Program-made: the position numbers and the translations under genes
Part shown: in pieces, positions 690 through 49,304 of the stretch
Position numbering within the stretch: the first letter of the stretch is position 1
How the letters are laid out: each line of letters begins with the position of its first letter
Source: Ulota crispa
Lineage: Eukaryota > Streptophyta > Bryopsida > Orthotrichales > Orthotrichaceae
Assembly (NCBI GenBank): GCA_963920765.1
Contig: OY987243.1
Span: 3,658,001 to 3,722,000, forward strand
Direction of reading: 5' to 3'
DNA length: 64,000 nt
The notes under the pieces: generated by a model
Told to the model about the DNA's origin: nothing
Databases searched by the model: none
What the model saw: only the letters and a program-made list of their open reading frames with translations

Positions 690-915
690 CCCTTCAAGGA
701 CCATAGGGCATAGTATATACGCTACCGTATAATTGGTATTTGCTACCAATAAGAAATTTAATTTAAGATCTCAAATACCTCACAAGAACCGCTTTGATCT
801 ATTCTCCAACTTCTTTGTTGATCTCAAATGTAATATAGGTGTGAATCCATTCTAAATACAAGAAAAATACCTTGTACTGTATTGCTCGCAGCAATAGGCT
901 TAAGTCATTTAGGGG
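690..915. mobile_element. TTAA-flanked TIR element, 226 bp
   Basis: The left end is TTAA followed by CCCTTCAAGGACC (690). The right end is the approximate inverse, gtcatttagggg, followed by TTAA (916-919). It is non-coding and belongs to the CCC...GGG/TTAA group found repeatedly in this window. It lies in the putative intron after 415. Confidence 0.6.
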
Positions 916-939
916 TTAAAAAGCCAGAAAATTCTATTA

Positions 940-1206
940 ATGAAGCTTGCAGTCCCCATTCAAAAGTACCTGGTGAAGTTCCAAAATGGAGAGACAAAGC
1001 AATTGATCGAATATGCAACATGTTTTGGAAGTGCTCCTCGAGTATGTAATTCCAAAGAACAAGTTTCTTATGTTTACTTGAACTGTGATTTTACATTTAA
1101 AGATGGTTCGATAGGGTATTGGAAAGATTCAACTAGTCGGAATTATATTGAGGGGATTTGTGTTGGAAGGGACGTACAAGAAGTTGTGTTTCTATTTAAC
1201 CCCTAA
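940..1206 (+). other. Unrecognised 88-codon open frame between two elements
   Basis: This ATG-led frame has a protein-like mixture of residues (five Cys, several aromatic). Its last codons and stop are supplied by the left terminus of the next TTAA element. It sits in the 280 bp separating two TTAA-flanked elements. No family is recognised. It may be an exon remnant or chance. Confidence 0.2.
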
Positions 1207-1866
1207 ATGCCCAAGGCACCCAATTTGGGTGTTTACAAAACTTTGAAGATGAATAAAATCTTATCAAATTATTATTTTTGGTATTTTCTTCTGAACACAA
1301 GTTTGTTTTGAAGTCTCTTTTCAATATCAAAAATTTGATTTAAAAAATAAACATTGATGATTTTTCTACTCAAGATTTTGTACAAGGGTGTCCAAGATTT
1401 TGTACAAGGATGTCAACTGTCATCTTGAGTTTTTTAGTGTTGGAAGATCTTGAAAATGAGCTTCAAATACACTAGAGCTTGGAGAAAAATCTGCATTAGA
1501 TATCCATTTTAAGAAAATACAAGAGTAGATTTTGAAAGCTGTAAATTGACTAAAGTTAAACATGTAATGACCTTAAACATCATATTTTTTTGATGATCAA
1601 CTTTTTAAATTTGACATGTGAAATGAAGATTAGAAAACTCCAAGTCTCTTTTGCAGTTTTAACACCCTCATGTTCAAACATTATAATCTTTCAAACTATA
1701 AGATATATTGTTGTGTTTTCTTTTTCCATATAATATCTAACATGTCAAATTTAAATTTGTACGGTTACAGTTTTTAAAAAAATGATGAGATTTATGAAAA
1801 GGTTGGTTGATTGGTTTCTTTTCTGAAAATTCCAAGAAGTTCAGATAGGCCTTGGGCATTTAGGGG
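1200..1866. mobile_element. TTAA-flanked TIR element with perfect termini, 667 bp
   Basis: The termini are perfect inverted repeats, CCCCTAAATGCCCAAGGC at the left and its exact complement at the right. TTAA lies at both sides (1196-1199 and 1867-1870). There is no open frame of note inside, so it is non-autonomous. The interior is related to 56255-56874 (shared stretches around 'caagattttgt' and 'atgagc.tcaaatac'). It is the best-preserved member of the family and therefore probably among the youngest. Confidence 0.8.
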
Positions 1867-1925
1867 TTAAGGTAGAGACACTTACTGCACAGAAATGTTC
1901 ATAAAGTTCAAATTTGTGCTTGCAG

Positions 1926-2335
1926 GATCCAACTCATTTGGAGGCAGCCTTGTTGCTGATCGCAGCAGAGCTTTTCAAGGCTATGGAGGGGCTACAAACT
2001 TAGCACAAAGGGCTCAGTTAAAACAATATTGATGTGGATTAGCAAGCCCTATGGACGTGTGCAATTGGTCTAGGATTAGACTTGGCCTTTTCATTGAAAT
2101 AAAACTACCAAGGCTCTGGCCTTATTCACGTTTCTTGATAAAATGGACGAGCAAATTTAATTGTTCATTTCAAAGCTCAACTTATGTGTTTGAAAATATT
2201 TGCGTTGTTGTTGAGTGCAGATTAGCATTGCATGACACAAATCCATCAGTTACAGCAACATGTGTAAAAGCATTGAAAGCGTTGAACACATTGCTAAGCT
2301 ACTCTGCCAATGACTTTATTTCCGGTCATCAAGAG
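1926..2335 (+). CDS. Two possible exons of a helical-repeat protein
   Basis: Exon candidate 1 starts after the acceptor at 1924-1925. Exon candidate 2 (2221-2335) has a clean acceptor (gagtgcag) and donor (gag|gtatca) and encodes LALHDTNPSVTATCVKALKA followed by LNTLLSYSANDF. That is the amphipathic helix-turn-helix look of a HEAT-type repeat, as in RPAP1/MINIYO-like proteins. The family suggestion is weak and from memory. No complete gene can be assembled, so this may be a fragment. Confidence 0.3.
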
Positions 2336-2773
2336 GTATCATTCTCCTATGTAGATAGCTTGCAGCAATGATTTGGTTACTCAGAAGCTTGTCTTAGCTC
2401 TTGAAATGAATTCTCAATTATGGTAGAATCTAGCAAATTCATTTTTCTTAAAATATTGCATTTATAAATAACGTGAAGGCGCTCAGGAATTAAGGGTTAA
2501 AGGGTCGGGTATGGGTGTACAGACTGTATTTGATTTGGTTGCATTGTCACCTAGTTTCCAATTATCATCATTCCCTTTATTTGAATGAATAAATTCATTT
2601 GCTTTTGTGCCTTCCAAGATTATGTTGCAGCATAAGGGTGTTCAAAGTACGTACAAGTTTTCATACTAACTGAAACTATATTGTGGCAACTTTAACTACA
2701 AATACTTTGAAATCAAAATCATTTATTCCCTTAACCATATGCTTCACCTGTAATGTAGGAGGACGCAATGTGA

Positions 2774-2800
2774 GCACCATATTCGTTAATTTGGGAAAAC
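2774..2800. repeat. Isolated end of the CACCATATT TIR family
   Basis: The sequence caccatattcgttaatttgg matches the terminus of the MITE family seen at 25267, 29022 and 30984. No matching inverse end is found nearby, so this is a remnant. Confidence 0.4.
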
Positions 2801-3039
2801 AAAACCTGATTTCTGGAATTTCAAATTTCCCTTTTTCAGGAGTTTTTAAGTGATTTAAAGTGAATTTTATGTTTACTGTTTATAACACCTTACATCAATG
2901 ACATAATATCCTGAAGGAATTATCAAAAAATTCACTTCAAATTATCAATATATTCTCACAAATTCAAAATTCAATTTCTCAAAATATATTTTGGGAAATT
3001 GTTTTTCTCAAATCAACAAATATTGTGTTTTTGGCTATG

Positions 3040-3340
3040 AAAAAACATTATGTATGCCAAATAGGTAGTTGTGTTTTATTTGTTTTTTTCCTAAAAGTGA
3101 TCATGAAAACATGATTAATTCATCAAGGGAGGCAACAAAAATCTCATCAAATACATTCATATTCTTAAGTAACACAAATTGTGAGGAGATTCACAAACAT
3201 GATTCTAGGTCACATACTGTCCTTGCAAATTTCATGAGGTTAGCGTGTATTATTCACGATTGCAACTTTTGGTAACAATATTACCATTTTTAGGCACTTG
3301 TCACACCAATGACACTACTCATACTAGTGAATAATAGTAT
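3040..3340. repeat. Diverged copy of the 21640/48834 element interior
   Basis: Shared words ('caaattgtgaggagattcacaaacat', shortened here, and 'ttcatgagg') align with the interior of the elements at 21640-21983 (same direction) and 48834-49157 (opposite direction). Clear TTAA ends are not preserved. It contains no convincing gene. Confidence 0.45.
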
Positions 3341-3533
3341 AGAACATTGTGGCCAAGTGTAGGTTGCAGCGAGCAACCTCTAATTCAAGGGTTACTTATG
3401 AAAACTAAATTTGAGATATTACTTTTGAATTGCAATCTTCATTGGTTTGAAATTTACCAAGCATCAAACTATTATTATAAATCAAGTTCAGTTACAATTT
3501 CAAAAAAATCTTACATATATTTAACTTGGAACA

Positions 3534-3831
3534 TGGTATTCATTAATTTGGAAAAACAATAGGTACCATTTTGTACTTGACCTTAATCCAAAATTGCCAC
3601 CTTAATTTAAAATAAGGAGGTCACCTGCAACCTAGTTCATGAACTTCTATACAAAATTTTAGAAGTTAATGAACTTTCTGTCAAAAAAGAGCGTATTTTG
3701 GAAGATATATATCTCATTTCATTTGAAAAAAATCAATAGATTCCCAATTCAATGAATATGACATTCTCTAGAAAAAAAAGCCAAGAGTCCCACTTTGTAC
3801 GGTTTATCCCAAATTAATAAATAACACATTT
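3534..3831. mobile_element. MITE of the CACCATATT family, diverged
   Basis: The left end ggtattcattaatttgg and the right end ccaaattaataaataac form an imperfect inverted pair about 300 bp apart. The interior begins with the family's typical 'accattttgtac' stretch. It is non-coding. Confidence 0.45.
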
Positions 3832-4595
3832 TGGATAAATAATGTGGCCTAACTGATAGTTTGGCTTTAAAATTTTAATATAACTTTATAATAAACACAT
3901 AGTAATTACATTATCTAACCAATTCTTTGAGAAACTAAACTTGCAAATTGTATAACATTAATAGACTGATTGCTACATGTCTCAAAATCTAAGCATGTGT
4001 CCCTTCCAAGTCTTTTTAAATCCTTTTTCATCTAATTTGTAGCTTCTCAATAAGCAATGGTAGATGATTTGTAATGCAAATTTTAGGGAAATAGAAGTAC
4101 TTAGAATATTCCCTTATAAAATACCATGTATTTTGTATTTTATGAAAACATAAAAACCAATTCAGGATTTCTGATTTTCATTGTTATATATAATATAATC
4201 AAACGACATAAAATTTGTTAACAAGAAAACACAATCTTTTGAACAAAAAATAAAAAATTTGTGTCAATTTCTTGGGGAGGTCACTCTATGTACATTTTGA
4301 GTACCTCGTGCGATGAGGGGTTTACTTTTTGGGGGGCTATTTATCTTGTAGGCAAGAATTAAAGAATCCCTATAATTACTACTAATTGGCAAAATGGCTT
4401 ATTTGATGGAACTTTATCATTACTTATACTTTCTATTTCAATGCAATTTAATCTAGGCTATATTCTATAAAAAAAAACCAAGAATTGAAAAACAAGTTGA
4501 AAGGAGAAAGATTAGACAAAGAAGTACACAACCCTGTTTTTCTTCCTAAAGCCATAAAGCTACCCATTTTAATTTGAAGAAATTGAGCATCTGAT

Positions 4596-4599
<4 letters not shown>

Positions 4600-4653
<54 letters not shown>

Positions 4654-4655
4654 TC
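4600..4655. repeat. (TA)n microsatellite
   Basis: About 23 uninterrupted TA units are followed by short imperfect ones. The open frame reading (IY)n across it on the minus strand is an artefact. Confidence 0.9.
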
Positions 4656-7600: not shown

Positions 7601-7863
7601 TTTTCCAATTTTACAGTTAGTCAAATGCATCGTGTGTTTGTTTTTTTTACACAATCACATATGATCTATGAAATGTAGTTTATGTTTTTCAAGTTTGCTA
7701 TTATTCTATATGTACCAAATTATCTTTCCTTTGTGAACATGAATTAAAAAAAAAATTGTCATTAAGAAAATTTTATCTTTATAGAGACCAAGTGCCTGAC
7801 TTTAATTCCAAGTTCAAAAGTATTGAATTTCATTAGTGAAGTTATGAACTCTCCAAAAGGCCC
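4656..7863. other. AT-rich stretch without recognisable features
   Basis: No long open frame, terminal repeat pair or RNA gene was recognised. Composition is uniformly AT-rich with scattered homopolymer runs. The same holds for 3832-4599 apart from the TA run. Confidence 0.5.
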
Positions 7864-7867
7864 TTAA

Positions 7868-7937
7868 CCCTTTAAGGTCGGGGCTCACTGGATCATTGTT
7901 AAGATTGACCAATTTTGGTTGCCTCGACTCTAAAGGG
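7868..7937. mobile_element. Minimal TTAA-flanked TIR element, 70 bp
   Basis: TTAA occurs at 7864-7867 and 7938-7941. The ends CCCTTTAAGGTCGGGGC and the inverse of CCCTTTAGAGTCGAGGC agree at 14 of 17 positions. About half the element is terminal repeat, so it cannot code for anything. It would fold into a single hairpin. Confidence 0.65.
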
Positions 7938-8579: not shown

Positions 8580-11500
8580 TCAATTACATGTCAAATGCTT
8601 CTCACAATTACGGCAAGACACTACATTCTCTCCCTTCTCTATCATACTTTTTGTAAAGCATGCATCACATGCAACTTTTGGAATTCTAAGAAACACAGTC
8701 TTTTTCTTTTTTAAATTTGAAATTAACTTGTGAGGTGGAGGTGTCAAACTAGGTTGAACTTGGCTTACATGCAATGTCTTCCCTCCATCATTCTTCTCTT
8801 TTTGTTGTAGAGATCTTCCATGTCCCATCTTTGTACGTTGCACATTGTTCTGAATAGAGGATATAGAACCTTTGCTTGGAAGTATAATACATGAAGGTTT
8901 TTCAAAAGTAAAAGGCTCCTTCATAGATTAAATACAACCCTTGATTATATCCTTCTTGTACTTCTTCTCCGCTCCTCCATAATTTGCCATGTTGGACTTT
9001 GCTTCTAAAAGTAGTGATTCCACTTCATGGATAACTTGCAAGAAATCCTCACCGTCATCATTGTCCGTTGTATTATCATTTATAATATCTTCATTGTGGA
9101 AATCTTCTGTGATAGGTTGAAGAAGTGGTTCTATGTTTGTACTAGAACAAGAAAATCCTTCATCATATAAATATTGATAATGTTCCTTCAATATCAATTG
9201 CACTACAAGAATGTGTTTGCATGTTCATATAGTTGAGGCACAATCACAAAAATGAGTACATACGGACATAGTGTACCTAGTATTTGGAGTAGTCTCACTT
9301 GCTATATGGAAGAGCATTTGATTGACATCCAGAACCTCTAAAACATCTTCAGGTTGACTTTCAAACTTTTGGAAAAGTCTTTGTGCTCTTGCTAGACGAC
9401 GTCGATGAGGCTTATCATTTGCTCTTCTAAAGAACCTCCCAAAATCACCTATAATATAAAAAAAAATTTAGATGTCAAATATGACACAATTGAAAATGTA
9501 CTAATAATCCAAAAACTAAAAAACAACAAGAATTTCACATAAGAAATACTTACTTATAACTTGAACTTGTTTGAAGTGGTCTACTAGAGTAGGCCCTCCA
9601 ATGCAACTTCCATCCGCTGCACTTCCAATGATGGCAACAATCAAATCTCAAACTGATCAATTTACTTTTCCTTGTAGTAGGGTATACTTGATCCACTCCC
9701 AATGTTTTTCTACATGATTTGTTGTGTCAACACCGCCATATTCAAATAGTCTCCCAAATTTAGGCCACATTCTTCTCCAAGAGATTGTATCATTTGCCCA
9801 TCCAAGTTTTATATACTCTTCTACCCCAAGAATATGCTCAAAATCTGCATAGAATTGTTGTTACTTTTGTTCAAAATGATCTTCTCATGGGCAATTCAAA
9901 AGTACATGAAGACTTTGCCACACTTTGTCTTTCTCTAGTATAGGTACACGTGTGAGAAAGTTCTCACTCCATGCTTTCATAACATGAAACCAACAAAAAA
10001 AAACCCGTCCTGCAACTTGCTCTTCTCCAAGTGATCCATCCTTCCAACAATGAATATCATTGTTAACAATACGTGTTATAGCATTCAACAATGTCTTGCA
10101 TTTATCAATTATGAATGCTAATGGTCTAACCTCTCCAATATTGGAAAATACATAAGTCAATTCAAGTTCTATTGCTATTCCTTCATGCCCTCCATTTTTG
10201 TCTTTGGTACATAACATATAGAAAACATGCATGGCTTTTCCATCTTGATTTGGAACTACTATGGCATATAGGGGTAAGTCATAATGATTAATTTTGAAAG
10301 TTGAATCAAAAACCCATGAATTACCCCTTGAAAATTGCTTCGCATTTCTTTTCATAAATTCGTCTTGTATTACAACAACAAAAGGCCGTTGGTTTGGATC
10401 TTTGTGCTCTGGGCAATATTTTTGATAGAAAATAACATTTTCTTGTTTTTGAAGCCTAATGACTTCCACATTGGCAGCATCCCAATCATTGGTTCTTAGT
10501 GCATCTACAAAAACCACAATAAACATATACAATGAATTTTTTTTATAAAAAATATATTTAGAAACATGCAATTCAAAACAGCCGTAGAGAGAAAAATACC
10601 ATTTGATCTCATGGAACATGATAGTTGCTCAACTTCCTTCGGAATAAGGAAAAATTGATATGTTATACACTCCATATCAGAAACCATAGCTTGCATTTTC
10701 TTCTCTTCTTGAACAGATACTAATGCCATTGTAGATGTACATATCATAAGCTTCAAATTTTCCATTGCAAAGGAAACAACCATTGGATGTATAGGCAAAA
10801 ACATCTTGTCCACTTCCAAACCAGGATGATGCCCACTGTGCTTTGAATGCACAAATATTTTTGCTTCCAAAGAAAATTTTGAGTTTGTTGAACATATTTG
10901 GCTATTAAGAAGTATCAATACTTTTATTTGAAACTTGCATTTGCATTTCATAGACTTCCTTTCTCTTCTGTAAATAGAAATGCTCACATCATCTTCTCTT
11001 TTCCTCTTTCTTGATCTTTTCTTTCCACCTCTATGGCATCGAAAATATGCAATTCATTCACGATTTGTAAATTTTGATTGAGAAACATGCCTTATTACAA
11101 TATGAGTGTTGCATATATCATCTAATTTGGCATCAACAAGTTCACAAGGGATACTGTGAACCTCATCCCAAAATTGTATATCTTGACAATGTAGACAAGA
11201 TTTTAAACAATTGTCAATGTATAATAGGGATATCCCACCTACATTTTCAGCAATAGCCCACCTATTGTGTATAGCAGAAGTCGTGGCATGCAATGATAAA
11301 TGCTTCCCGCTAAGACCAACATGAGAAGTAGACACAATAGATGACCAAATTCCTCTATGAGGTATTTCCTTCTCTTTTGTATCATTTGAAGTTGAGAGAC
11401 CAACTCCATCAACAATTTCTATTAAATTCAAACTATTTTGAAGTTTCACCCACTGTTCAAGAGTGTGAATAGGATCATTGACATCTATAGGTCTTCCATG

Positions 11501-13250: not shown

Positions 13251-13267
13251 AAGGAAGCCCATATACT

Positions 13268-13830: not shown

Positions 13831-15500
13831 TAACTTATGGGAAGTTTTATGGGAAATCAATACATTTCCTAGTTTTGTTGATTAGGTTTGGCGATGTTTT
13901 TTTCACTCCGTGGCTGCCTAAAGCTCACTTTTTTCTTGGTGCAAATGTGTCATTTCTATTTACCATTCAATAAATTGCCGAATTTTTGAATTTCTCCTTG
14001 GCATATTCCCAAAACGTAATGTGTAAAGTTGGATTTTTTTTTTCATTATTACATGAAATTTTTAAAGGGGTTCATGCGTAATTTATGGTCTCATAATTTC
14101 ATGTTCTTAAGAGGAGTTGAACTTGACCAAGCCTCCACCTTCTTGCAAATAAGAAATGTTGCTTTTGAAAAATGTGTGGATCCAAAAGAGGGTACATGCA
14201 TTTTCTTAAAGGCTAGTTAGTACAACAAAACAACACATGTAATTCAACCCAACTTACTATTTTGAGAATCAAGTCAAACAAACATAAAACATTGTTTGAA
14301 TTGAGGCCAATTAAGAAAATAATGTATTTTAAAAGGTTAACATAAAAAAACAAAAGTTGATTTCATTTTTCCACAAAAAATTATCATTAACCCCTAAAGG
14401 CCCAAACCCTCTTTTCTGTGAAAGTCACTAAAAACTGCCACTTTGGGGGGAATGAGTAGAAAAGTAGGAAATAAACTTTGTTTTGCAAATCCAATAGTAG
14501 GATTTTGCGTTAGACTAGAAGAGGTACTGTGGGAAAAAATTAGGTCATTCTAGATGAAAAGGAGGGAGATATTTACATCTGAAGGGAAAAAAAGGTTTTC
14601 TTTTGTGTTGTCCAAAAAATTCAAAAGCCTTTGACCACTCTTACATGACTAAAATAGCTCTACAAAAAGTTGAGATTTCTTTTTTCCATGTAGAAGACCA
14701 AGTTAGGTATGTGTGGGAAAATCTTCAAATCAATTGGAACTATACAACACATGGGAAAAAAATAGTAAGTAAAAAGAAATAGAGAATGAGTAAAATCACT
14801 AAATTGTTAAGAATTTAATTATTAAAATGAAAAATGCAAATCCTAATGGTTATAATGTTGTAATAAGAAATCTACTTCCTTTAGTTTAGTTTTTATTTCC
14901 AAATATTGAATACTGTGGAAAATAGAGGACTTCAAAGTTTATTTTAGAGTAGAGAACTCATAATTGCCTACAAACAAAAACTCCTCATAATTTTCATCTC
15001 ATTGATTGAAATTGAATGATTAAAAGCTTCCCACATATAAAAAAAATCTAAAGAACCAATTTTAGATTATTATTTTTAAAGGATACAGTTTTTAAAGAAA
15101 TTTTTGGGCTGCTTAGATTGCCCTCCCTCCCTCGGGTTGCAAAAATTCTTGCATAACTTCTTTGCCAAATATTAGAATGAAGAAAAAATTAGATGCCTGT
15201 GTAGGTCTTGGGAATCCCCACCTTCAATAAAAGTTTCAAAAAATGACACAAAATAGTTTTGCTATAGGTACATGCCCAAAATCCATTTGTCCCCCTAGGG
15301 GACAATTGAGGGGTTAATGATAGATCCAACACCTCATTTGGCCCTTCCAAAGCAGTTCTAAGCATGGCATCTAAATTCTTGCTCCAAATTCACAACACAA
15401 TCTTGCTTTTGCAAGTCAAACTCAAAGACAAAAAAAAGACCCCTCTCACTTGGTTGCCACTCCTTGCCATCTTGAGCTCTTCAAGATTAGATTCTAAATC
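13825..15500. repeat. Dispersed repeat R2, copy 1 (carries an insertion)
   Basis: This copy aligns with 47335-48190 over its whole length (shared words 'gggaagttttatgg', 'gtggatccaaaagagggc' with one change, 'ttgcttttgcaagtcaaact'). It is interrupted by the TTAA element at 14391-15313, which the other copy lacks. R2 is non-coding and its own ends are unclear. Confidence 0.7.
14391..15313. mobile_element. TTAA-flanked TIR element, 923 bp, inserted in repeat R2
   Basis: TTAA occurs at 14387-14390 and 15314-15317. The left end is CCCCTAAAGGCCC and the right end is the inverse of CCCCTCAATTGTCC. The interior is closely related to 32392-33745 (for example 'aaaaaattaggtcattctagatg' shortened here). 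The corresponding empty site is at 48000-48003 (TCAA within 'atcatcaatgata'), so the duplicated target is the tetranucleotide TTAA. No transposase frame is present. Confidence 0.8.
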
Positions 15501-16432: not shown

Positions 16433-17343
16433 CCCCTAAAAGCCCAAGGAGCCCACTTTAGGCTTTAAGAGAACTCGGACAGGCTCTATTGACTTCATAA
16501 TTTCAAAATTTTTCATGAGATTTTTAGGATGGATGCTACTCATCATAACCTACATGTGAAGCTTTATTTCATGTCATTCCAATAAGTAATGCAAAAATTA
16601 TAAGGTTTTTTCAATTTCAATGTCAAACTGGGCAGCAAAAAATATATTCTAAAATTTTTATTTTTATTTTTATATAATTTTATAGAATGATACCTACTTA
16701 AAAAAATTGAATCACTCAATTCCAAATAATGAGGTAAGAGTTAAAAGGAGTTTTATTTTGCGGGCAATGAAGGTAGGAAGAGGGTAGAAAAAACATATAA
16801 AGTTATCTTTTACTCTCAATTTTGAAAATTTTCAAATGAAAATGAAAACTAAAGTTACGAATTGTTTGTTAGAGCATTCTCACCATTGGGATTAACAATT
16901 TTCAAATTCTTCCAAAACTTATTAGCATATAAGTTACATCTTTCATTCATCAATACCTTTCACTTTACAATTTTTGTAAAAATAAATCCAAAGTTTTTTT
17001 TGGTTATATTTTTTATATATGCTTTCAACTTGTTTTCCAACATATTGCAAAAATTGCACAAGAAATACAACATACGTGTTTTTCTCTAAAAAGTTTGAAA
17101 AACAAAATTTCACCTTCTAGAAGGATTAGAAAAACCTACATTTTGAAGTTTGGATACATTGATCTTGCAATTGGTGGGGATGTTCATTTTGAAATTTTGG
17201 GACAATGTTGTTGTGCAAGTCAACTAAAGGATCCTATAGTTGGATTTTTGAAAAAGTAAGTTTCAATGAATATTTAGACCCTAGTTTGGGGACTAGTATT
17301 TTGAAGCAGTTTTGGGCCTCTAAACACAAAAGAATTTTAGGGG
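16433..17343. mobile_element. TTAA-type TIR element, 911 bp
   Basis: The left flank TTAT (probably a changed TTAA) precedes CCCCTAAAAGCCCAAGG. The right end is ttttagggg followed by TTAA (17344-17347). Nine terminal bases are perfectly inverted. The interior is AT-rich and non-coding. Confidence 0.55.
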
Positions 17344-19260: not shown

Positions 19261-19534
19261 CAGCTTCGAAGAAGAGCCAGCGGCGTTGTTGCCGCTCTCA
19301 CGACTCCCTCTCCGACACGGAGCCACCACCCGCGCATCACCTCTCTTCTCCATAATACATATCGTCCATCCTCCCCTGTCGCATTGCATATTTAGTTTCT
19401 CCATGCTGCTTCTTGACTTTGAAAGGTAGAGTTTAGTTTCTATTTTCGCGATCTGGATCAAGTTTACGCAGAGTGTGTGCGTTATTTTCAGATTGAACGT
19501 GAGCAAAGGGGCAATAGTAGCAGACTCCATAGCT

Positions 19535-20360
19535 ATGGGGTCGCAGCGGGAGGTAGAGGTTACGGTGCTTTCGGCACAGGACTTGAAGAATGTGAAGCTA
19601 ACAGGGGGATCCATGAACCCTTACTGCGTAGCGTGGGTTCAGCCTCACGTGAAGAAGGCTGGTGCAGTCAACAATGGCGGAGGTGTTAATCCTACTTGGA
19701 ACTCTGTCATCAAGCTTCCTGTTGACGAGAGTCTGATCGAGCAAGGGAACGCCAACGTGACGGTGGAGATTTACAATCATGGCAAATTCTCAAACAAGTT
19801 CATTGGGTTGGCGCATGTGCCTATTTCTGCCCAAAAAGGTCAAACGGGAGGAACTTCGTTTCAGGTTAGAGCTTGTTCTGTCTTTTGCTTACCCTACGAT
19901 TGTGTTGACTTTTTGGGAATGATGTTTGTTTGTTTGTTTGAGATGAAATTTGCTTAAAATAATGGATGACGATGTGCAGGTTCGGAAAAAGTCGGGGAAG
20001 AACCAGGGTGTGATAAACGTAGCGGTGAAGCTGGGAAGGATCTTGACAGAAGAAGAAATAGCGAAGAGTGCACCTCCAGTCATGGCATACCCGGCCATGG
20101 GTATGGGTGGGCAGAGCTCGCAGCAACAATTCTATGGTCAGCGAGGCCAACAATATCCGCAACAGTATCAGCAGCAGCAGTATCCCCAGCAGCAGTATGT
20201 GTACCAGCAAGCGCAGCCGAGGAGAGGCGCAGGCGGTTTTGGGGGGGCAGGCATGGGATTGGGCGCTGGGCTGTTGGGCGGAATGCTGCTTGGTGGGGCT
20301 ATGGATGGTGGAATGGATGGGGGCGGTGGAGGATGCGGCGGTGGAGGCTGCGGCGGTTAA
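19535..20360 (+). CDS. C2-domain protein, SRC2-like, with Gln- and Gly/Cys-rich tail
   Basis: There are two exons, 19535-19864 and 19980-20360, with a 115-base GT-AG intron, giving a 236-residue product. The ATG at 19535 was chosen because the C2 domain begins immediately after it (MGSQREVEVTVLSAQDLKN). Residues 5-125 form a single C2 domain with the plant SRC2 signature (NPYCVAWVQP, NPTWNSVIKLPV, FSNKFIGLAHVPIS). One loop Asp usual in Ca2+-binding C2 domains is Asn (SMNPY), so calcium binding may be reduced. A Gln/Tyr-rich segment (QQYPQQYQQQQYP) follows, then a hydrophobic Gly-rich stretch (GLGAGLLGGMLLGGAMDGG) and a Gly-Cys terminus, as in SRC2 proteins, which associate with membranes and respond to cold. 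It is intact and the ABRE-like motifs upstream fit stress regulation. The closest function is inferred from family resemblance. Confidence 0.88.
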
Positions 20361-21639: not shown

Positions 21640-21983
21640 CCCCTAAACGTCGAAGAGGACAAAAACGTCTACTAGTTCTAAAAAAATTTGTGATTCAAAA
21701 AAAGTTGTTTTTCATTTGATTTTTTTTTTAGAAGTGACCATAAACACATGATCCATAATGGAAGACCTCTTGAGATGCATTCATTTTTTTGTAACCCAAA
21801 TTGTGATAAGATTCAGAAACATGGTGTTAGCTCCTAAGTTGCCCTTCTTGCAATTTTCATGAGGGCACCATGCACTGTTGACTTTTCCAACTTTTTGAAG
21901 CAATACTATTGGTGCCCATGTGCAAAACATTGTAGACTGCTACATGCGAGGCAAGGCACAGTGATCCATCCATCCTTTAAGGG
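21640..21983. mobile_element. TTAA-type TIR element, 344 bp
   Basis: The left end is CCCCTAAACGTCGAAG, preceded by TGAA. The right end is cctttaaggg followed by TTAA (21984-21987). The interior is the inverse of 48834-49157 (shared 'gagggcaccatgcact'). It is non-coding. Confidence 0.6.
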
Positions 21984-32391: not shown

Positions 32392-33745
32392 CCCCTCAAG
32401 GACCGAGCCCTTTTTTCTTTTTTTTTTTTGCCAAAATCAATCAAAACTACCACACTTCTAGAGGATGACTAAGAAAGTAGGTTTTTTTTTTTTTTTTTTA
32501 AATTTCAAAATTCAACCATAGAATCTTGTCTTAGACTAGAAGAAGTATTTGTGGGGAAAAAATTAGGTCATTCTAGATGGAGAGGAGGGACATATTTACA
32601 CCTGAAGTGAATGAAAAAGTTTTTTTCCCAGCTGTTTGAAAATTTCAAAAGCTTTTGACCACTCTTACATGGAAAAAATTACTCTACCCAAAGTTGTGCT
32701 TTTAATTTACCATGTAGGTGATCAAGTTAGGTATATGCGGGAGAATTTTCAATTCAATTGGAACTATACAACACATGGGAAAAAAATAGTAAGTAAAAAG
32801 AAGTAGAGAATGAGTCAAAATACTATATTGTAAACATTTAATTAATGAAATGAATGCAAATCTCAATAGTTATAATGTAATAAACGATCGGGCATTGATA
32901 TGTGTACCACAGCCCCTGGGTAAAATTTAGATTTCTACCATCAAAAAGCTGAATTTGAGAATTTGGAATTCAAATTTGGACTTAGAGACCATGATTCTGT
33001 CGAGAACCATGAATTTTTTTGCAATTCAACAACATCCAATGAAAAAGTTTATATTTTTTACAAAAAAAGTAAAAGTAATACTTTTCTCCCTAGCTAAATT
33101 TTTTTATTGAGTGTTGTTGAATTGCAACTTTTTTTTATGGTTCTAGACTAAATCATGGTCTCTACGTCCAAATCTCAATTCCAAATTCTTAAATTCAACT
33201 TTTTGATGGTAGAAATCTAAAATTTGCCCCGGGGGTGTGGTACAGTAGTTCAAAGGGTGTGGTACACATATTAATTCCCTGAACAATCTACTTCTTTTAG
33301 TTTAATTTTTTTCCCAAAATATTGAAAGTTGAGTAAAATAAAGGACTTCAAAGTTTATTTTAGAATAGAGAATCCATAACTGCCTGCAAACAATAACTCC
33401 TCATAACTTTCATCTCATTGATTGAAATTGAATGATTCAAAGCTTCCCACGTATAAAAAAAATCCAAATAACCAATCTCAAGTTTTTATTTAAAAAGAAT
33501 GTGAATTTTAAAAAAGTTTTTTGGATTGCTCGGATGGGCATTCCTCCCCAAATTTTCATAAATTCTTGCATAACTTCTTTGTCAAATGTCAAAATGAAGA
33601 AAAAATTAAATGCCCACGTAAACGTAAATCTTTGAATTCCCCATCTCCTCCATAAAAGTTTCAAAAAATCACACTAAGTAGTTTAGCCATAGGTACATGC
33701 CCAAAATCTCATTTGTCCCCCAAAGGGACAATGGTCCTTTAGGGG
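32392..33745. mobile_element. TTAA-flanked TIR element carrying a nested MITE
   Basis: TTAA occurs at 32388-32391 and 33746-33749. The ends CCCCTCAAGGACC and the inverse of CCCCTAAAGGACC differ at one base. The interior is homologous to 14391-15313 apart from a 390-base insertion at 32890-33279. Without that insertion the length (about 960) agrees with the other copy. Non-coding. Confidence 0.8.
32890..33279. mobile_element. Fold-back Mutator-type MITE, 390 bp, nested
   Basis: The ends gggcattgatatgtgtacc and the inverse of gggaattaatatgtgtacc continue into long inverted arms with 'tagatttctaccatcaaaaa' on the left and its inverse on the right. Flanks taaacgatc and tgaacaatc agree at 7 of 9, and the related uninterrupted element at 14391 has taagaaatc there. 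It is therefore a real insertion with a 9-base duplication. Confidence 0.85.
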
Positions 33746-33760: not shown

Positions 33761-33995
33761 GGGAATTGATATGTGTACCACATCCTTTGAACTATTGTAC
33801 CACACCCCTAAGGTAAATTTTAGATTCCTAACTAAATATTTTCATTGGGTGTTGTTGAATTGCAACTTTTTTTCTATGATTCTAGACTAAATTGTGGTTT
33901 CTAAGTCCAAATCTAAATTTCAAATTCTCAAATTCGACTTTTTGATGGTAGAAATCTAAAATTTACCCCGAGGTGTGATGCACATGTCAATTCCC
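33761..33995. mobile_element. Fold-back Mutator-type MITE, 235 bp, perfect 9-base duplication
   Basis: Same family as 32890-33279, with the interior shortened. The target duplication ATAACTTAT is perfect (33752-33760 and 33996-34004), which points to a comparatively recent insertion. It begins only 16 bases after the end of the neighbouring TTAA element. Confidence 0.88.
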
Positions 33996-37595: not shown

Positions 37596-38339
37596 TTAGT
37601 ATAATCTATCACTCCACCCCGACGGCAGCTGGTCATTGGCTCGATCCAACAGACATTGCAACATGACGGTGTATTCAAGCATTTCGTTTTGCATTTCAAT
37701 TTGCTGCTTCTCGAGCGCCCGGCTTTCTTCAAGGTCTCGAACCAACTCCACGTTCCTTTCCAGCAAATCGATCTCCACCTCAAGCCTGCGGGTTCTCAAG
37801 AAGGAGATCCGCCTGTCTCTCTGGTGCACAGCTCGTCTCAAGGCCGTGTTCCTAACTTCCAACACTCTCATCCGATGTTCCAAATTGACTTGGTTTTGCG
37901 TCAATCGGTGCACGCAGTGTCTCTCCTGGAGAAGAGCATCGGATAGCTGGTTCATGAAAATATCGCATGCTGTGAGCACAGATTTTGGAATGAAACTTCT
38001 GCTAATTCTAATGAAATTTTCACTGCGTGAACCTGCCATGAATGGAGAACCCATGCCGAGTAGCGGATTGCGCGGTCGCGGTGGAATAATTATGCTGTCC
38101 GACTCGGGAGTTCTAGCGGCTGCACTGCCACTGCCATGGCTTGGATCTGCACGAGCTCCATAAAGAGGAATGATGTCGAGGTCTCTTCTCAGGATGTGTC
38201 TGCAAACCGGGCACGGCATTCGCCGGTTCTGGAGCCATTGGTATAAGCATGGCCAGCAGAAGACATGACCGCACGAGGTTGAAATTGGATCTGTTGGAGG
38301 GCCCATGCAGATGAAGCACTCTAGCACATTTGAATACAA
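37596..38339 (-). CDS. RING-finger protein, RMA/RNF185-like, with coiled-coil tail; start unclear
   Basis: A C3HC4 RING lies at the very N-terminus: CFIC, then CGHVFCWPCLYQWL, then CPVC. This arrangement and the FCWPCL signature are those of the RMA1/RNF5/RNF185 family of E3 ubiquitin ligases. After a Ser/Pro-rich linker (PPRPRNPLLGMGS), residues 125-235 are rich in Leu, Arg and Glu and look like a coiled coil (LEVEIDLLERNVELVRDLEE). The C-terminal membrane anchor of RMA proteins is absent. The frame has no ATG before the RING: position 38339 is a TTG, and a TAG lies 16 codons upstream. A good ATG-led frame (MSTGQAEQEDRLEWSSETVA, starting near 38447) lies in another phase just before it, so either a small intron or a frameshift separates start and RING. 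The paralogue at 40190 is also broken. Confidence 0.65.
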   Translation of the reverse strand: MYSNVLECFICMGPPTDPISTSCGHVFCWPCLYQWLQNRRMPCPVCRHILRRDLDIIPLYGARADPSHGSGSAAARTPESDSIIIPPRPRNPLLGMGSPFMAGSRSENFIRISRSFIPKSVLTACDIFMNQLSDALLQERHCVHRLTQNQVNLEHRMRVLEVRNTALRRAVHQRDRRISFLRTRRLEVEIDLLERNVELVRDLEESRALEKQQIEMQNEMLEYTVMLQCLLDRANDQLPSGWSDRLY

Positions 38340-38812: not shown

Positions 38813-38821
38813 TTTAGTCAT

Positions 38822-39498: not shown

Positions 39499-39507
39499 TT
39501 TAGTCAT

Positions 39508-42149: not shown

Positions 42150-43890
42150 GATTTGGTATCACATTCCAGAAATCTGTATTCCGCTCCTTGGACGTGAAAA
42201 GGAACGCTGCATAACTGAGGATTTATCTTCGGTGATGTGCAACTGCAAAACTAATAGCCGCCAATTATAACACCTGTGACACAGAAAATTGATCAATTAA
42301 CAAAAAAGATAAAATTTCAAAACATGACACAACATTTGAGAGCGCTGGGACATTCTGGTTCTCAATGCATTACTATATTTACGTTAAATGTATGTTTCAA
42401 TTACTTCAAAGACATTTCACATCAACGCAAAATACATTTTTCCACAAACGAATCTTTACGTCGCATCTGAAGCTCATATTTGTTAAAATGGTGAACTTCA
42501 GAGAAAATGACGCTTCAGTCGCCCAACTGAGACCTCAGATCCATACCATTTCTAGAGCTCTGTATACTTGGAAGTCAAGATTTTGGCGATTTGGAACACG
42601 CCTTTTTAACGAACTCGACCATTTTCACTCGTATAACATGACAGCCTTACAAAAATTTATAACTTGTAATGCCAGGCATTCCAATTGACTGGCTGCTTAC
42701 CACATTGATCCCCGAGGAGGAAATTACGTCCATCAATACTCTCGGCGATAGAAGCCATTCCGGAAATCTGAAGGAGAAAATGGTTAAAAGAGCGTGCAAT
42801 ACGGGTGTCATTCATGAGCCACAGAGATCCCGAGTGATCTTGACGGTTGACGCCACAAAGACGAATATACATTTGAGACGTAGAACTCTAGCCTGTAATG
42901 CAAATAGCGAACCTATACTACTTACGAAAAGATGTCAGACGTTAAGTGCGAGATGATGAAACGATGCTGGAATTAGAGAAATCAGGTCTGAAAAATGCAA
43001 AAGGCTTGACAAAAAAGATGAAAGGAGAGGGTCGCACCAGCTCTCCGACAACAGCCACTGATGGTGATCCTTCCCAAAGACTTGCTTCAGCACCTTCATC
43101 TCCTAAGTCGTCAAGCGCAGTGCAAGCAGTCCGAATCCAGATGACCAGTCCAATCAGGTTTGTCAGCTTCACCTCTTCCCCTGCGCTTCAGATGACCGAT
43201 TTCCTGCCCAATGCCAGCACCTGCACTTCCAACACCAACAATTAAGATCTAGGAAAAAAAGCGGAGTATGAGCCTATCCAATTTACAGACCAAGATTACA
43301 TCAAGAGGATAACCAATTCAGATTTTAAAAAATCAGAGAAAAAAAGAGTTAATATAAATAAAGAATCTAGTACCCTCTTCAAAGACATGGCAAGAATTGA
43401 GATTTACTCCCAAGAGGTCTCGCAGAGTGACCAATTTTACAAGGAATCAAGTGAGAGTTCTATGTTGTTGCATCAACCTTCTCCAAGCTAAGACCTACAA
43501 TCCCTCGTGAGCCCGATGTAATTTCAAAAAGTACCGGAACACATCAATACAGGATGAAGCTAGCGATAAGTTGAAGGAACCTCAGAGTCCCAATCTAATC
43601 ATTGACTCAAATACAAATCCAAAAGGTAAAAACCAACTGAACAAGCACGGTACCTGGGGTGTCTGTTGGCTCTGGACCGCAGGAGAGGATTGCATCGAGA
43701 GAAGCTACCCAGAGGAAGATTGAGTAAGGTAGCGAGCCAGCGCTACAAGGACAGAGCCTCTCCAGCCTCTCGTAGCGTAGCTGCTTATTTGAATACAAAG
43801 TTCATGTGAACGTGACAAATTGGAGAAGAACCCCAGAAAATACACATAGAAAGAAATCCATGCCAGATCTTGGGAACGATGATCCATGGA
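42150..43890 (-). pseudogene. Partial duplicate of the DRP1 gene 5' end
   Basis: This stretch aligns with about 54000-55740, in the same direction. The copy of exon 1 (43038-43172) reads MKLTNLIGLVIWIRTACTAL and ends SVAVVGEL where the parent has SVAVVGGQ, so the P-loop glycines are damaged. Exon 2 is recognisable at about 42706-42773 (IAESIDGRNFLL) and exon 3 at about 42160-42275 (WRLLVLQLHI), both degenerate. Intron sequence is conserved between them. The match continues upstream of the ATG to about 43890 ('ccatgccagatcttggg' against 'ccgtgccagatctaggg'). All exons from the fourth on are absent. The copy arose at DNA level, since introns and 5' flank are included, and has decayed. Confidence 0.85.
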
Positions 43891-43946
43891 GCAGCAGGCA
43901 CTGAGATAACTAGACTTGGATTGAATGCGCGACGCAACCGAAGTTG

Positions 43947-46316
43947 CTACATCTGTCGCGCAATCCTGATCTTCTCTACATGATTTTGAAAGGTCCGTGC
44001 TTGCGCTTGTTCAAACACTTCCATTTCACTCACAAGCTTCCTCCATCTCTCGTTTTCGTCCCTGAGTGCCTTAATGTCTTCGTCATACTTTCTCATTGTG
44101 GCATGCTGGGTAGCGACATGCTCCCGAGCATTCTCAGCCGCTTCTTGCAGCCTTGCCTTCTCTATCTCGCTGCGTTCAAGCAAGACACGAGCTGTTCGGA
44201 GCTCGGACCGCACAAGCTCGGCAGCTGCCTCGGCACTCTCACGGGAAGAAACGACCTGTGAGATCTCAGTGGAAAGAACAGAGTTGGCTCGCCTCAAATC
44301 ATCCCGATCCCTTTCCAAGGCATCTGCCCGTGTGTTTTCCCTCTCTAATTGTTTGGCAAGGCGATCCACGGTTTCCTGAAGAGTACGTGAAGATTCTTTC
44401 ACTGCCACCAGCTCCCCTGCCACCCTCTCCAGCTTAGTTTTCGACTCTGCTAATTGACTGTTCAGAGTGAATTTCTCTTTCTCTTGATTGTCTTTCGCTT
44501 GCTCAAGGTTTCGAAGCTCCACTTCCATCTTGTGTGCCTTCATTCTGTGTTCGTTGCACTCAGAAGTTGCGGCATTCCTCTCCATCTTCGCTTCTTCCAG
44601 CAAACGACTCATTTCAGCAACCTTGGTCTCTGCTGATCCAAGCGTCTGAAGAGTCTTGCTAAGCTCTCTGTCTCGTTCTGCATATCTTCCCTCCATTGAG
44701 GAAAGTCTCGATTTCATGTCAGACCGCTCTCTTGCCTTGTCAGATTTCTGCGTCTCCAACACCTGGAGCCCTGACTTAAGGTTAGCATTCTCTGCGGTAA
44801 GACGCTCCAGTTTATCATTCAATGTCGAGATTTGCTGTCGGTGGACTTCAAGGTTGTGCTCCAGAACAGCATTCCGTTCTCGTGTGTCCGTTGCGCCGAC
44901 ACTCTTGGCTCGAATCTCACCAGTCAAAGCAGCCACTGTTTGTTGCAAACTAGCTACCTCTCTCCGCTGGACATCCAGATCATTCAACCTCTCCGTCCCG
45001 TCTGACCTTGATTTCGTCACTAGCTCATGCACCTGCTCCTTCACCTTCAGGAAATCCTGCGCTAGTGGAGGCGTATCCGACAGCTCAGTCACTGGAAAGC
45101 CCGGAGCAACATGACCATCCTTACCATTTGCATTCAAATTGTAATCCAGAGCCCTTGTAGATAGCCGTCGGGATTTCTTGGTACTACGCCACCCCTCAAT
45201 TGGCCCTGGTCCGGCCTCCTCCACTGGGAAAGAAAATCTCCGATTGATCTTTCTCACGTGAGGAACATCCTCAACATCAGCAAGCCCTGTGACCTCAGAG
45301 AATTTGCGAAGCACGAACATATCATCAAATGTCACTCCTGAACCACCATATCCACCAAAAAGATAAAGCGCGTCCCCTTTCGCAATCAAACTATGCGCTG
45401 CTCGACCACCAGGGCTGTTGCTCGACAGAGCCTCGGCTGCTGCATCATCACTTCGTTTCCGACCTCGAGGTTTGGCAATGGGCTCTTGTGGAAAAACATG
45501 CCATGTCAATCTAAGTTGAGCTAGATTTCCAGAGCTTACATTAAGTGCAAAGGTGTCACGCAGTCGCTCACTTCCATTACGACCTCCGTGAATTACAACA
45601 AGATTCTCCCCAATCAAGGTAGCGGCGTGGTTTGAGCGGTGAAGAGGAGCTGTCCCTTTGATCTCAACACGGTCTTTCCATGTATTAGTAGCACTATCAT
45701 AAACATTGAGATTGTGATCACCTGAAACAATACCACGGTCGCTTTTCCCTCCATATAGCAAAACATTGTGCCCTACGGAGGTCATGGTGTGGTAACCTCG
45801 AGCATTAGGCGAAGGTCCCATCGGATTTAGCACCTCCCACTCCAATGCATCAGTGTGAAGAACAGCAAGGTCACTCAGCCAGGAATCCACACCGCCGTAG
45901 CCACCATAGATCAAAATTGCACGAGTGTTCAAAGGATGCACAACCGCCGCATGAGTAGCGATCAATCTCCCTGCCAAGGTTCCTTTGGTCGCTGGAGTCG
46001 TCCATTCAAGAGTGTTGACGTTGAAAATGTGAACGTCACCATACATGGTCACCTTGTCACTACCACCGATGATCCAAAGCTCCTCGTCTCCGACCAGAGT
46101 CGCCGTGTGGTAAGCCCGAGCGCTGATGGAAGCATGCGCCTGCAGCAGCTCCCATTCCTCCGTCACCGTATCGAAACCCCACACATCGTTGTGAAAAATA
46201 TTCCCGTTCCGACCACCAAATACAAATATCGTTTTGCCAACTAGCGTTGCCGTGTGCCCTGCTCTGCCCTTCAAACTACGGTGCCCTGGCAAGCGCTGCC
46301 ACCTGAATTGAACCAT
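43947..46316 (-). CDS. Kelch-repeat/coiled-coil protein, 789 residues, intronless
   Basis: One uninterrupted frame from ATG 46316. Residues about 15-345 hold six kelch blades, each with the pattern H-x-A-T-L-V...GG...D...W: for example GRAGHTATLVGKTIFVFGG, AYHTATLVGDEELWIIGG, GYHTMTSVGHNVLLYGG, SNHAATLIGENLVVIHGG, AAHSLIAKGDALYLFGG. These should form a beta-propeller. A linker with basic clusters follows (KKSRRLS), then about residues 430-785 are a long coiled coil with Leu/Glu/Lys heptads. This layout resembles kelch-coiled-coil proteins such as ACBP4/5-type plant proteins without their acyl-CoA-binding domain, or Tea1-like cell-polarity proteins. A scaffold or trafficking role is inference. 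The upstream bases 'caattcag|gtggcag' could be a splice acceptor inside the first codons, so an additional 5' exon is possible. The 3' end lies 57 bases from the duplicated DRP1 5' flank. Confidence 0.88.
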   Translation of the reverse strand: MVQFRWQRLPGHRSLKGRAGHTATLVGKTIFVFGGRNGNIFHNDVWGFDTVTEEWELLQAHASISARAYHTATLVGDEELWIIGGSDKVTMYGDVHIFNVNTLEWTTPATKGTLAGRLIATHAAVVHPLNTRAILIYGGYGGVDSWLSDLAVLHTDALEWEVLNPMGPSPNARGYHTMTSVGHNVLLYGGKSDRGIVSGDHNLNVYDSATNTWKDRVEIKGTAPLHRSNHAATLIGENLVVIHGGRNGSERLRDTFALNVSSGNLAQLRLTWHVFPQEPIAKPRGRKRSDDAAAEALSSNSPGGRAAHSLIAKGDALYLFGGYGGSGVTFDDMFVLRKFSEVTGLADVEDVPHVRKINRRFSFPVEEAGPGPIEGWRSTKKSRRLSTRALDYNLNANGKDGHVAPGFPVTELSDTPPLAQDFLKVKEQVHELVTKSRSDGTERLNDLDVQRREVASLQQTVAALTGEIRAKSVGATDTRERNAVLEHNLEVHRQQISTLNDKLERLTAENANLKSGLQVLETQKSDKARERSDMKSRLSSMEGRYAERDRELSKTLQTLGSAETKVAEMSRLLEEAKMERNAATSECNEHRMKAHKMEVELRNLEQAKDNQEKEKFTLNSQLAESKTKLERVAGELVAVKESSRTLQETVDRLAKQLERENTRADALERDRDDLRRANSVLSTEISQVVSSRESAEAAAELVRSELRTARVLLERSEIEKARLQEAAENAREHVATQHATMRKYDEDIKALRDENERWRKLVSEMEVFEQAQARTFQNHVEKIRIARQM

Positions 46317-47334
46317 CAGTGCTCAACCGAATTTCACAAACGTAGCACCTCGTCCCTTCTTACGCCTCACCAGGCAAGAGATATCCCTAAAATTCAGTGC
46401 AATGTTTTGATTGAACACCTAAACTCTTCCCCAAAGTAAAATTAAATCGCAGCGAAAATATTGCAAATAAATTATCCACTACCAGTGCATATCTCTAAAA
46501 TCTATCAGCTGATTCTTAATCTCGCCAGCCTGCCATCTCCTAATAAGCAATCCACTCTTCAGCTCTACCAGAATGAGCTCACTCCACCGCCTCGTGGAGG
46601 TCAATACCAAACAAACATAAAACTGCTTCCTTTATTCAAACAGAGTCCAATCACTTGACCCCAATTCTCCAATAACCAAAAAATCTCGGAAACACAGAAC
46701 ACCACTAGATTGCTCAAATTCTGCCTTGGGAACTCCGCCAACACTCACTGCCAAAACGCGCAGAGAATTGTTTCGAAATCCCGAAAGTGGAATCTCAAAG
46801 CGCCGGAGCGAGAGTGAGCGATTGCAGAATAACAGAATCGGAGTAGTCAGGATGTGATTGACAGCCTGATCGTGCGCACATCTGCCACCCAGAATCACCA
46901 AATGCAGAGCTATACTGAATTACCAGATCGAGCGCAAGCAGAAATTTGTTACACACTTGGTGATCTATAAGTTAATGCGTGAGCGAGCTTGGGAGAACGG
47001 CGTCTTCGATTGAATTGGACAGTACGGTCAGTGAAGTCACGGTTTTGAATACTCATTACTGGAGAATCTGCACGGGAATCTATTCCCTTCGACAGCTTCA
47101 AGTGCAATCTTCATCGCAAGCAGCCTTCTTCAACACGACGCCCGCAACCCTAATTTACTGATTCCAGGAAGCTCCTTGAAACCGGTCACCATGAGTGCCA
47201 CATGGACGGATGATAAATTGTTGACGAATGAAAAACCTTTCATCGTTGGTACACGTGTTTCACATTTCGAAGAGCACGTAATGGGCCTCAGGAAAGAGCA
47301 CCACTAATCAGTATTCAGTACTCTGACTAAAGAC
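46317..47334. other. Upstream region of the kelch gene and spacer
   Basis: Moderately GC-rich sequence, probably promoter and 5' untranslated region of the kelch gene on the minus strand. Small frames here are not recognised. Confidence 0.35.
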
Positions 47335-48190
47335 CACAGTCTGGGAAGTTTTATGGAAAAATCGGTGCATTTTCTAATTTTGTTGACAAGAGTAATTTTT
47401 TTCCGTTGATAGCTGTTTAAAGCTCATGTTTTTTTTGGATAAATTTACCATTTCTTTAATTTATATTATTTGGCAAATTCTCAAGTTTCTGAATGTCTCC
47501 TTTTTGAAATGTAATGTGTATATTGTAAGTTGGTAGCAGGTTTGGCACTTTTCATCCTGCAGCTCCACTACTAGTAGTGCAGCCACATGATGAAAAGTGC
47601 CAAACCTACTATCATATTAGAGTAGTTAATTATTTTTTCAAGTTTTATTTTCCTTTGTGGTACTTTCAAAGAAAATTCATGCATAATTTAGGGTTCCATA
47701 ATTTAACATTCTTGGCATGAGTTGAATTTGGCCAAGTCCCATCTTCTTGGAGCCAAGGATGTTGACTTTGAAAAATGCGTGGATCCAAAAGAGGGCCCGT
47801 GTCTTGTCTAGATGCTAGTTAGTGCAACAAAACAACACATGTGATTCAACCCAACTCACTATTTTGAGAATCAAGTGAGTCAAACAAACATGAAGCATTG
47901 TTTGGACTAAAATTAACTAACAAAGTTAAGTAACTTAGAGGATTAGCATTAGGCTTTTTTTGATATTTACCTTCATTTTTTCACAAAGGTATGACATCAT
48001 CAATGATATGATCAAACTCCTCACTTGACCCTTCCAAAGCAATTCTAAGCATGAAATCTAGATTCTTACTTCAATTTCATAACCCAATCTTGCTTTTGCA
48101 AGTCAAACTCATAAACACAAAAAAAGAAAATATCAACTTTGGGCCCCTCTCACGACGCTACCACTTTTTGCCATCTTGAGCCTTGATTTA
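47335..48190. repeat. Dispersed repeat R2, copy 2 (uninserted)
   Basis: Aligns with 13825-15500 but lacks the 923-base TTAA element. The corresponding empty site is at 48000-48003. It has its own 80-base hairpin insertion at 47531-47614. Non-coding. Confidence 0.7.
47531..47614. repeat. Short perfect-stem hairpin, 84 bp
   Basis: Left arm tggtagcaggtttggcactt and beyond pairs with 47589-47614 over 26 bases with one or two mismatches. The loop holds a second palindrome (actactagtagt). It is absent from the other R2 copy, so it is an insertion (tiny MITE) or hairpin element. Confidence 0.7.
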
Positions 48191-48829
48191 GTTTTAGTTT
48201 TAATTTTAGTTTTAATTCTATTTTTATTGTTTATTCTACTTATTTTTTCTAGTAAGCTTAAGTTTCCATCATCTCAACTTAAATTTAAAAAATAATCACA
48301 AACAATAAATATCTTAAGTAATGGTGGTTGCCCAAATTGCCAAGACTTTTTTTAAACCTTTTCAATCAATTTCCTATTTTTCATTTGTGGGGGCAACCTC
48401 ATCCAATTTTTTTCTATGCCACTCTAAAAATTTCAATTTTTTTGTAAACAAACCTCGACAATCTATTGCTTGAGCCCAGGGTATTTTTTCTTGACAAATT
48501 TTTGCCTAACCTCATGTTTGCCTAACCTCATTTTTGCCTAACCTTGAACTGTTACACGCTGCCCATTACACTAAAAAAAATCGGGTGAAAAATTGGGTGA
48601 AACCGCCAAATCCCTTCTCCAGCAAACACCAAGTTCACCAAAGTTTGGATGAAAGTAACAAATTTTATTGATGCACAAGCACATTCATTGTTTCAATCTA
48701 ATTTTATTCAATTTTCCTTACTTGCTTGCACTCCTAGGTGTCGGTCGCTTTGCCCTAAACAAACCAAAGTAAACCTTGTGCCCTTCAATCATTTCCATAA
48801 TTATCCAACAAGCGTCATTTTAACCCTTG
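48191..48829. other. Spacer, nothing recognised
   Basis: Low-complexity 'ttttagttttaat' tract at 48185-48240 and a threefold 'tgcctaacctca' repeat near 48505-48545. No gene. Confidence 0.4.
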
Positions 48830-48833
48830 AACG

Positions 48834-49157
48834 TTCTACAGTGGTCTCTGCAACAGTTGGCAAGTGCTCGCTCATCATAATATTGTTTTCTAAAGTTGCA
48901 TAAGTCAATAGTGCATGGTGCCCTCATGAAAATTGCAAGGACAACTTGGGACCTAACAACGTATCTTTGAATCTTTTCACAATTTGGGTTACCTACTAAG
49001 ATAAGTGTGTTTGGTGAGGTTGTTTCTTGCCTTCCATGATGCACGAGGTACTTGTAATCACTTCTAAAAAATTCAGGTGAAAATCAACTTTTTTTTGTAG
49101 TACAAAGTGTTTTTTTGGTGACCAAGGAACGTTTCCGTCTTCTTTGACGTTTAGGGG
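48834..49157. mobile_element. TTAA-flanked TIR element, 324 bp
   Basis: TTAA occurs at 48830-48833 and 49158-49161. The left end CCCTTGAACGTTC and the right end, inverse of CCCCTAAACGTCA, agree at most of the first 12 positions. The interior is the inverse of 21640-21983. Non-coding. Confidence 0.7.
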
Positions 49158-49304
49158 TTAAAACACATAATGAAGGCCATTTTGAAACCATCACCTTCTA
49201 CCCCAATATGCACACTTTCACTCCTAACAAACCACAATTGTAAGTGACTCCACTTCACAATGCTTAGTACATCAACACGCAAAACACTAATTAAACTTCC
49301 AATA

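Follow-up and report, generated by a model that had tools for sequence, protein, structure and literature searches.

Transposons of the piggyBac superfamily (insect piggyBac, bat piggyBat) combine a DDE_Tnp_1_7 transposase, whose aspartates lie in recurring motifs, with CCC...GGG ends and the duplication of a TTAA target. Miniature inverted-repeat transposable elements (MITEs) of piggyBac type in animals have TTAA duplications as well. Here, a stretch of 64,000 nucleotides (the window; positions 3658001-3722000 of contig C2) of a plant genome assembly of 274.8 Mb and 157 contigs was analysed, and a set of short, TTAA-flanked elements within it was compared with these systems. The genome of the plant, most likely a moss, displays the same transposase domain, aspartate motifs, ends and target as the superfamily. 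The window elements are almost certainly non-autonomous piggyBac MITEs, mobilised in trans by the DDE_Tnp_1_7 transposases of 5-to-6-kb elements with like ends.

piggyBac and MITEs are both mentioned in a paper on coral MITEs (PMC2872659) and in an insect MITE database (PMC5199201). MITEs from 207 plant genomes, four of them from bryophytes, were sorted into five superfamilies plus Micron, and no occurrence of piggyBac was counted in that text (PMC12550479). Elsewhere, PiggyBac is counted among the MITE superfamilies of angiosperms (PMC10004981), plants are named among piggyBac hosts (PMC10813416, PMC8086355), and repeat tables list 1,230 PiggyBac copies (122,417 bp) for a fern (PMC6890710) and one PiggyBac hit of 75 bp for a grass (PMC8319324). 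The first-pass annotation of the window, made from its letters, had called the superfamily rare or undescribed in land plants; this is fair but, given the angiosperm and fern reports and the naming of plants as hosts, it is not absolute. Among the papers listed by searches of an open-licence library, none describes piggyBac in a moss genome, and a prior description elsewhere is possible. The word piggyBac is absent from the Sphagnum genome paper. The one moss-genome paper among those listed that contains the word is that on Niphotrichum, and both occurrences in it are of the phrase 'expression piggybacking'.

Ends, target sites and abundance

Eight TTAA-flanked CCC...GGG elements had been annotated in the window, and the ends and flanks of all eight were confirmed, including two left flanks that differ from TTAA by one base (Table 1). 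Inversely oriented CCC(C/T)T ends lie beside TTAA, or a one-base variant of it, in 8 of 8 elements. Inverted repeats at the termini are short, matching at 7 to 12 of the first 12 bases, and the summed length of the elements, 4,829 bp, is about 7.5% of the window. For the last element the left end, previously placed at 48834, was moved to 48824. Single ends had further been reported near 56874 and 56879. Two ends abut one TTAA there, and the left one, at 56874, belongs to a degenerate ninth element. Between 56900 and 61000 no right end turned up to pair with the left end at 56879. The element at 32392-33745 reaches 1354 bp because a foldback element of about 390 bp is nested in an element of the 923-bp type.

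In the window, TTAACCCYTNAA was matched 13 times, against 0.15 expected, and 13 matches were reached in 0 of 100 shuffles. When the flank was left unconstrained, 11 of the 13 sites for CCCYTNAANG followed TTAA and the other 2 were one base off, while TTAA starts at 0.64% of window positions. Slightly longer ends abound in the assembly: TTAACCCYTNAANG was found 20,111 + 20,030 times (40,141 in all), whereas the reversed control occurs 84 + 74 times (158 in all). Provided that most ends are paired, this would correspond to an estimated 20,000 or so elements, a number that solo and decayed ends make approximate. The TTAA target likewise extends beyond the window: 7,555 (85%) of the 8,876 assembly copies of the 14-base terminal motif CCCCTAAAGGACCA follow an exact TTAA.

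Twenty transposase loci (L019-L038), chosen for a high score or few stop codons and not at random, were fetched from the assembly and compared with the window. Within the window and these loci, TTAA stood at 22 of 27 CCCCTAAANGNC ends, the remaining 5 being one base off, and at 40 of 61 sites for the looser CCCYTNAANG, with 9 more one base off. The family A pattern TTAACCCCTAAATGCCYAAGG (21 bases, TTAA included), which corresponds to the ends of the element at 1200-1866, occurs 2,291 times in the assembly and its reversed control 0 times. Counted by eye, 100 listed family A places held 16 inward-facing pairs within 1 kb, 13 of them spanning 637 to 664 bp (TTAA included). In a separate count, inward pairs of ends numbered 22, against 6 neighbouring outward pairs taken as a control; the 22 include a 65-bp pair inside the L036 element and an L034 pair with no exact TTAA on either flank. 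Relatives of the element at 21640-21983 were found in L038, L031 and L026 and in the window at 48824-49157.

A common element end, CCCCTAAA (1200-1209), resembles the plant telomere unit CCCTAAA, probably by coincidence.

Transposases and the elements that carry them

The piggyBac transposase domain (PF13843) was matched above the family cut-off at least 120 times in the assembly (best E 1.3e-73); the count is a lower bound, 116 of 528 candidates having been scored. The matches listed lie on contigs C1 to C11. No PF13843 match was obtained in 14 control genomes (prokaryotes in the later control lists), and no relative was found in viral contigs scanned with one moss transposase. An open frame of 365 amino acids at L019 was aligned with the solved transposases piggyBat (9c0f, E 2.5e-20) and piggyBac (6x67, E 7.2e-19), and the aspartates of the TVDE, DN and GVDxxDQ motifs were in register in both alignments. 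These catalytic motifs are common to eight moss open frames wherever covered, except that the third motif reads GVNVGDQ at L021, with asparagine for aspartate. Measured against the first frame in the alignment, the moss frames show 32 to 43% identity. In a re-scan of eight open frames PF13843 was recovered in six, the two without a match being the upstream frames of L030 and L023.

These upstream frames represent a second long open frame that precedes the transposase in full-length copies of family A; it is rich in glutamine and glutamate and is without a Pfam match. One frame, that at L003, has a cysteine-rich stretch at its end, a candidate for the C-terminal cysteine-rich domain of the superfamily. 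At L026 (4210-5496), two adjoining stop-free matches to the piggyBac domain are perhaps two exons. No matching TTAA-CCC pair was recognised around them, and they could be either a decayed element or a piggyBac-derived host gene.

A piggyBac transposase flanked by matching termini, for which a search had been proposed in the first-pass annotation, was found in four of the 20 loci (L023, L030, L035 and L036). In each of the four, PF13843 is bracketed by both ends, 5.2 to 5.7 kb apart. The transposase-bearing elements have TTAA-CCCCTAAATGCC... or TTAA-CCCCTTGAGG... ends, those at L023 and L030 beginning C(C/T)CCTAAATGCC(C/T)AA and those at L035 and L036 beginning C(C/T)CCTTGAGG. Among the eight ends of the four elements, six begin with CCCC and two with CTCC. 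The L035 and L036 copies, which lie on different contigs, resemble each other at 89 to 93% over a stretch that begins and ends precisely with TTAA, and no BLAST match was found between their 1-kb flanks.

Two window MITEs have termini in common with transposase-bearing sequence, the others being untied. The left 33 bp of the element at 1200-1866 match one end of the bracketed L030 element at 91%, and 41 bp match one L023 end at 85%. The first 54 bp of the element at 14391-15313 match, at 80%, the one end recognised at L029, which lies 1.9 kb downstream of the transposase domain there. Several divergent transposase families are present, and one of them is tied by its ends to a window MITE.

Target sites lacking an insertion were sought with joined flanks. 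A repeat surrounds the L028 element (8718-9774); its joined flanks gave 10 matches other than to themselves, of which 8 span the site; of the two that fall short of it, one was extended and aligned and the other omitted. In the nine empty copies so aligned, one tetramer stands at the site, with no gap. The uninterrupted target copies show that this element is a clean insertion.

By the mechanism proposed, the transposase would recognise the CCC-type ends and excise the element, which would then be pasted at a TTAA tetramer, with the TTAA duplicated at both sides. By analogy with insect piggyBac, excision would be expected to leave no footprint. Non-autonomous copies would be moved in trans by transposases from the same genome; they may have arisen by internal deletion, each MITE subfamily probably from one source family, and the elements may still be active.

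Contrary evidence and alternative explanations

Several results weigh against the assignment to piggyBac. Stop codons were present in 110 of the 120 PF13843 matches and absent from 10, as counted by eye in unspliced sequence. Both ends were recognised in 4 of the 20 loci and not in the other 16: L022 shows the right end only, because the first 13 bases of the element have been replaced, and in 15 no pair of ends was made out. In the 4-kb stretches taken at each of three further transposase places, no ends were recognised. In the compared sequence (window and fetched loci), neither the interior of the element at 690-915 nor the element at 7868-7937 has a relative, and the sole relative of the one at 16433-17343 is 62 bp long; these three are therefore tied to piggyBac by their ends and TTAA. 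The tetramer in the nine empty copies of the L028 site reads TTAA in one, TTGA in six and otherwise in two. At the 690-915 site, TTAA was found in 0 of 8 copies, with a gap of 1 to 2 bases in 2 of them. The joined flanks of L031 and of the window element at 48824 gave only self matches, and those of L021 gave one partial match, from query position 80, seven bases before the TTAA, and no usable empty copy.

At the 690-915 site, the left flank was matched at 39 other places (40 of 164 candidates scored). In 29 of these the match continues for 12 bases or more beyond the junction, and in the other 10 it breaks off no farther than 3 bases past the end of the TTAA. The repeat runs on past the site in the eight copies that were read. 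Given the gaps and the lack of TTAA in these copies, the site is better evidence for insertion into a repeat than for a 4-bp duplication. The L022 and L023 piggyBac copies contain part of this host repeat at 74%, so that the MITE probably lies within an older piggyBac relic. In answer to the check for TTAA duplications at empty sites that the first-pass annotation proposed, uninterrupted target copies were read for both elements, with some ambiguity at 690-915; most of the empty copies do not themselves read TTAA.

The case for piggyBac holds because the termini, the TTAA statistics and the bracketed transposases carry it, despite the weaker 690-915 site and the narrow tie between MITEs and transposases. 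The transposase family, deduced in the first-pass annotation from ends and TTAA, is supported by the PF13843 matches, the bracketing ends and the uninterrupted targets.

The elements could all be ancient, dead relics, their copy number the product of old bursts; this is a real possibility, although we lean against it. The longer matches between window MITEs and their relatives in the window and fetched loci are about 69 to 85% alike, which makes most of these matches older, and the interrupted transposase domains would suit relics also. Against this stands the comparison of L022 with L023, whose 5,228 aligned columns contain 5 substitutions and 33 columns with gaps. Between the two copies, which are oppositely oriented and separated by about 14.5 kb, no match was found in the 1-kb flanks. 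A recent local transposition explains them most simply, despite the damage to the left end of L022; at least one family has thus moved recently, unless a local inverted duplication began at the element ends. Whether piggyBac has become a leading DNA transposon in a moss lineage here, with several transposase families, copies numbering some 20,000, and movement that is recent or still under way, we judge to be evenly balanced.

It is very unlikely that the elements belong to another TTAA superfamily (Kolobok, for example) and that the piggyBac transposases of this genome have nothing to do with them. Duplication of TTAA is not by itself peculiar to piggyBac, both ends were resolved in a minority of transposase loci, and long end similarity ties only one window MITE to a bracketed transposase. 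That similarity, however, places ends of the 1200-1866 type around the piggyBac transposases of both L023 and L030, and CCC ends suit piggyBac. The four elements with both ends carry PF13843, the transposase profile to which the assembly search was directed.

The plant host named in the annotation was narrowed to most likely a moss. An rbcL match, apparently of the land-plant form, lies on contig C157, and the C-terminal domain of a plastid-type RNA polymerase alpha subunit (rpoA) was found only on C2 and is absent from C157. In mosses, rpoA has been lost from the plastid and moved to the nucleus, so that its position here points to a moss. A second match to the RuBisCO large chain lies in a 964-amino-acid open frame on a small contig (C97:118173-118940, L040), perhaps an organelle or foreign piece. 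Contamination from a plant-dwelling animal or fungus can practically be dismissed: animals and fungi are the main known hosts of piggyBac, and the C97 match suggests that the assembly may hold small foreign contigs, but the assembly contains about 40,000 ends, the contigs with transposase matches include C2, which carries the window and the sole rpoA-type match, and two elements are embedded in repeats that recur across many of these contigs.

Other features and comparison with described systems

The features are collected in Table 1. The foldback copies are presumably Mutator-type MITEs, and the one at 33761 has a 9-bp duplication, ATAACTTAT. A minus-strand open frame at 9885-10619 encodes a MULE transposase domain (PF10551, E 1.8e-11) and may be related to the source from which the foldback elements derive. 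Likely host genes in the window encode a Kelch-repeat protein (43947-46316), a RING-finger protein (37596-38339) and a C2-domain protein (19475-19957).

Table 1. Positions of the elements and open frames described in the text (window positions unless a locus is given).
Position	Strand	Feature	Length	Ends, flanks and remarks
690-915	.	piggyBac-type MITE	226 bp	TTAA at both flanks; inside a multi-copy repeat
1200-1866	.	piggyBac-type MITE	667 bp	family A ends (CCCCTAAATGCCCAAGG); TTAA at both flanks
7868-7937	.	piggyBac-type MITE	70 bp	TTAA at both flanks
14391-15313	.	piggyBac-type MITE	923 bp	CCCCTAAAGG subfamily; TTAA at both flanks
16433-17343	.	piggyBac-type MITE	911 bp	flanks TTAT and TTAA
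21640-21983	.	piggyBac-type MITE	344 bp	flanks TGAA and TTAA
32392-33745	.	piggyBac-type MITE	1354 bp	923-bp subfamily; length includes nested foldback element (about 32890-33279)
48824-49157	.	piggyBac-type MITE	334 bp	TTAA at both flanks (left TTAA 48820-48823)
56243-56874 (approx.)	.	degenerate ninth element		aligns to 1200-1866; left end decayed; right end GGGG then TTAA
56879-56890	+	single left end		CCCTTGAGCG; TTAA at 56875-56878 common with ninth element
32890-33279		foldback element		ends like GGGAATTGATATGTGTACCAC; nested in piggyBac-type MITE
33761-33995		foldback element		ends like GGGAATTGATATGTGTACCAC
61116-61527		foldback element		ends like GGGAATTGATATGTGTACCAC
L023:6202-7563		upstream open frame	453 aa	glutamine- and glutamate-rich
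L030:5999-7249		upstream open frame	416 aa	glutamine- and glutamate-rich

If piggyBac has indeed become a leading transposon of a moss lineage, its elements would be the first well-documented native plant transposons expected, by analogy with insect piggyBac, to excise without a footprint. The success of the superfamily would be extended to land plants, and the question of horizontal transfer would be raised. The elements also suggest that surveys of plant repeats can overlook an abundant class when they are based on five MITE superfamilies.

In being short, non-coding, bounded by inverted ends and present in thousands of copies, the elements resemble the Stowaway, Tourist, hAT, Mutator and CACTA types of plant MITE, from which they differ in their TTAA duplication and piggyBac transposase. 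The piggyBac MITEs of corals and insects have animal hosts. Insect piggyBac and piggyBat differ from the moss elements in that the latter occur in a land plant and at very high copy number; the full-length moss elements, at 5.2 to 5.7 kb, are also longer than insect piggyBac. The mechanism is that of ordinary piggyBac, and known; what is new is the host and the abundance.

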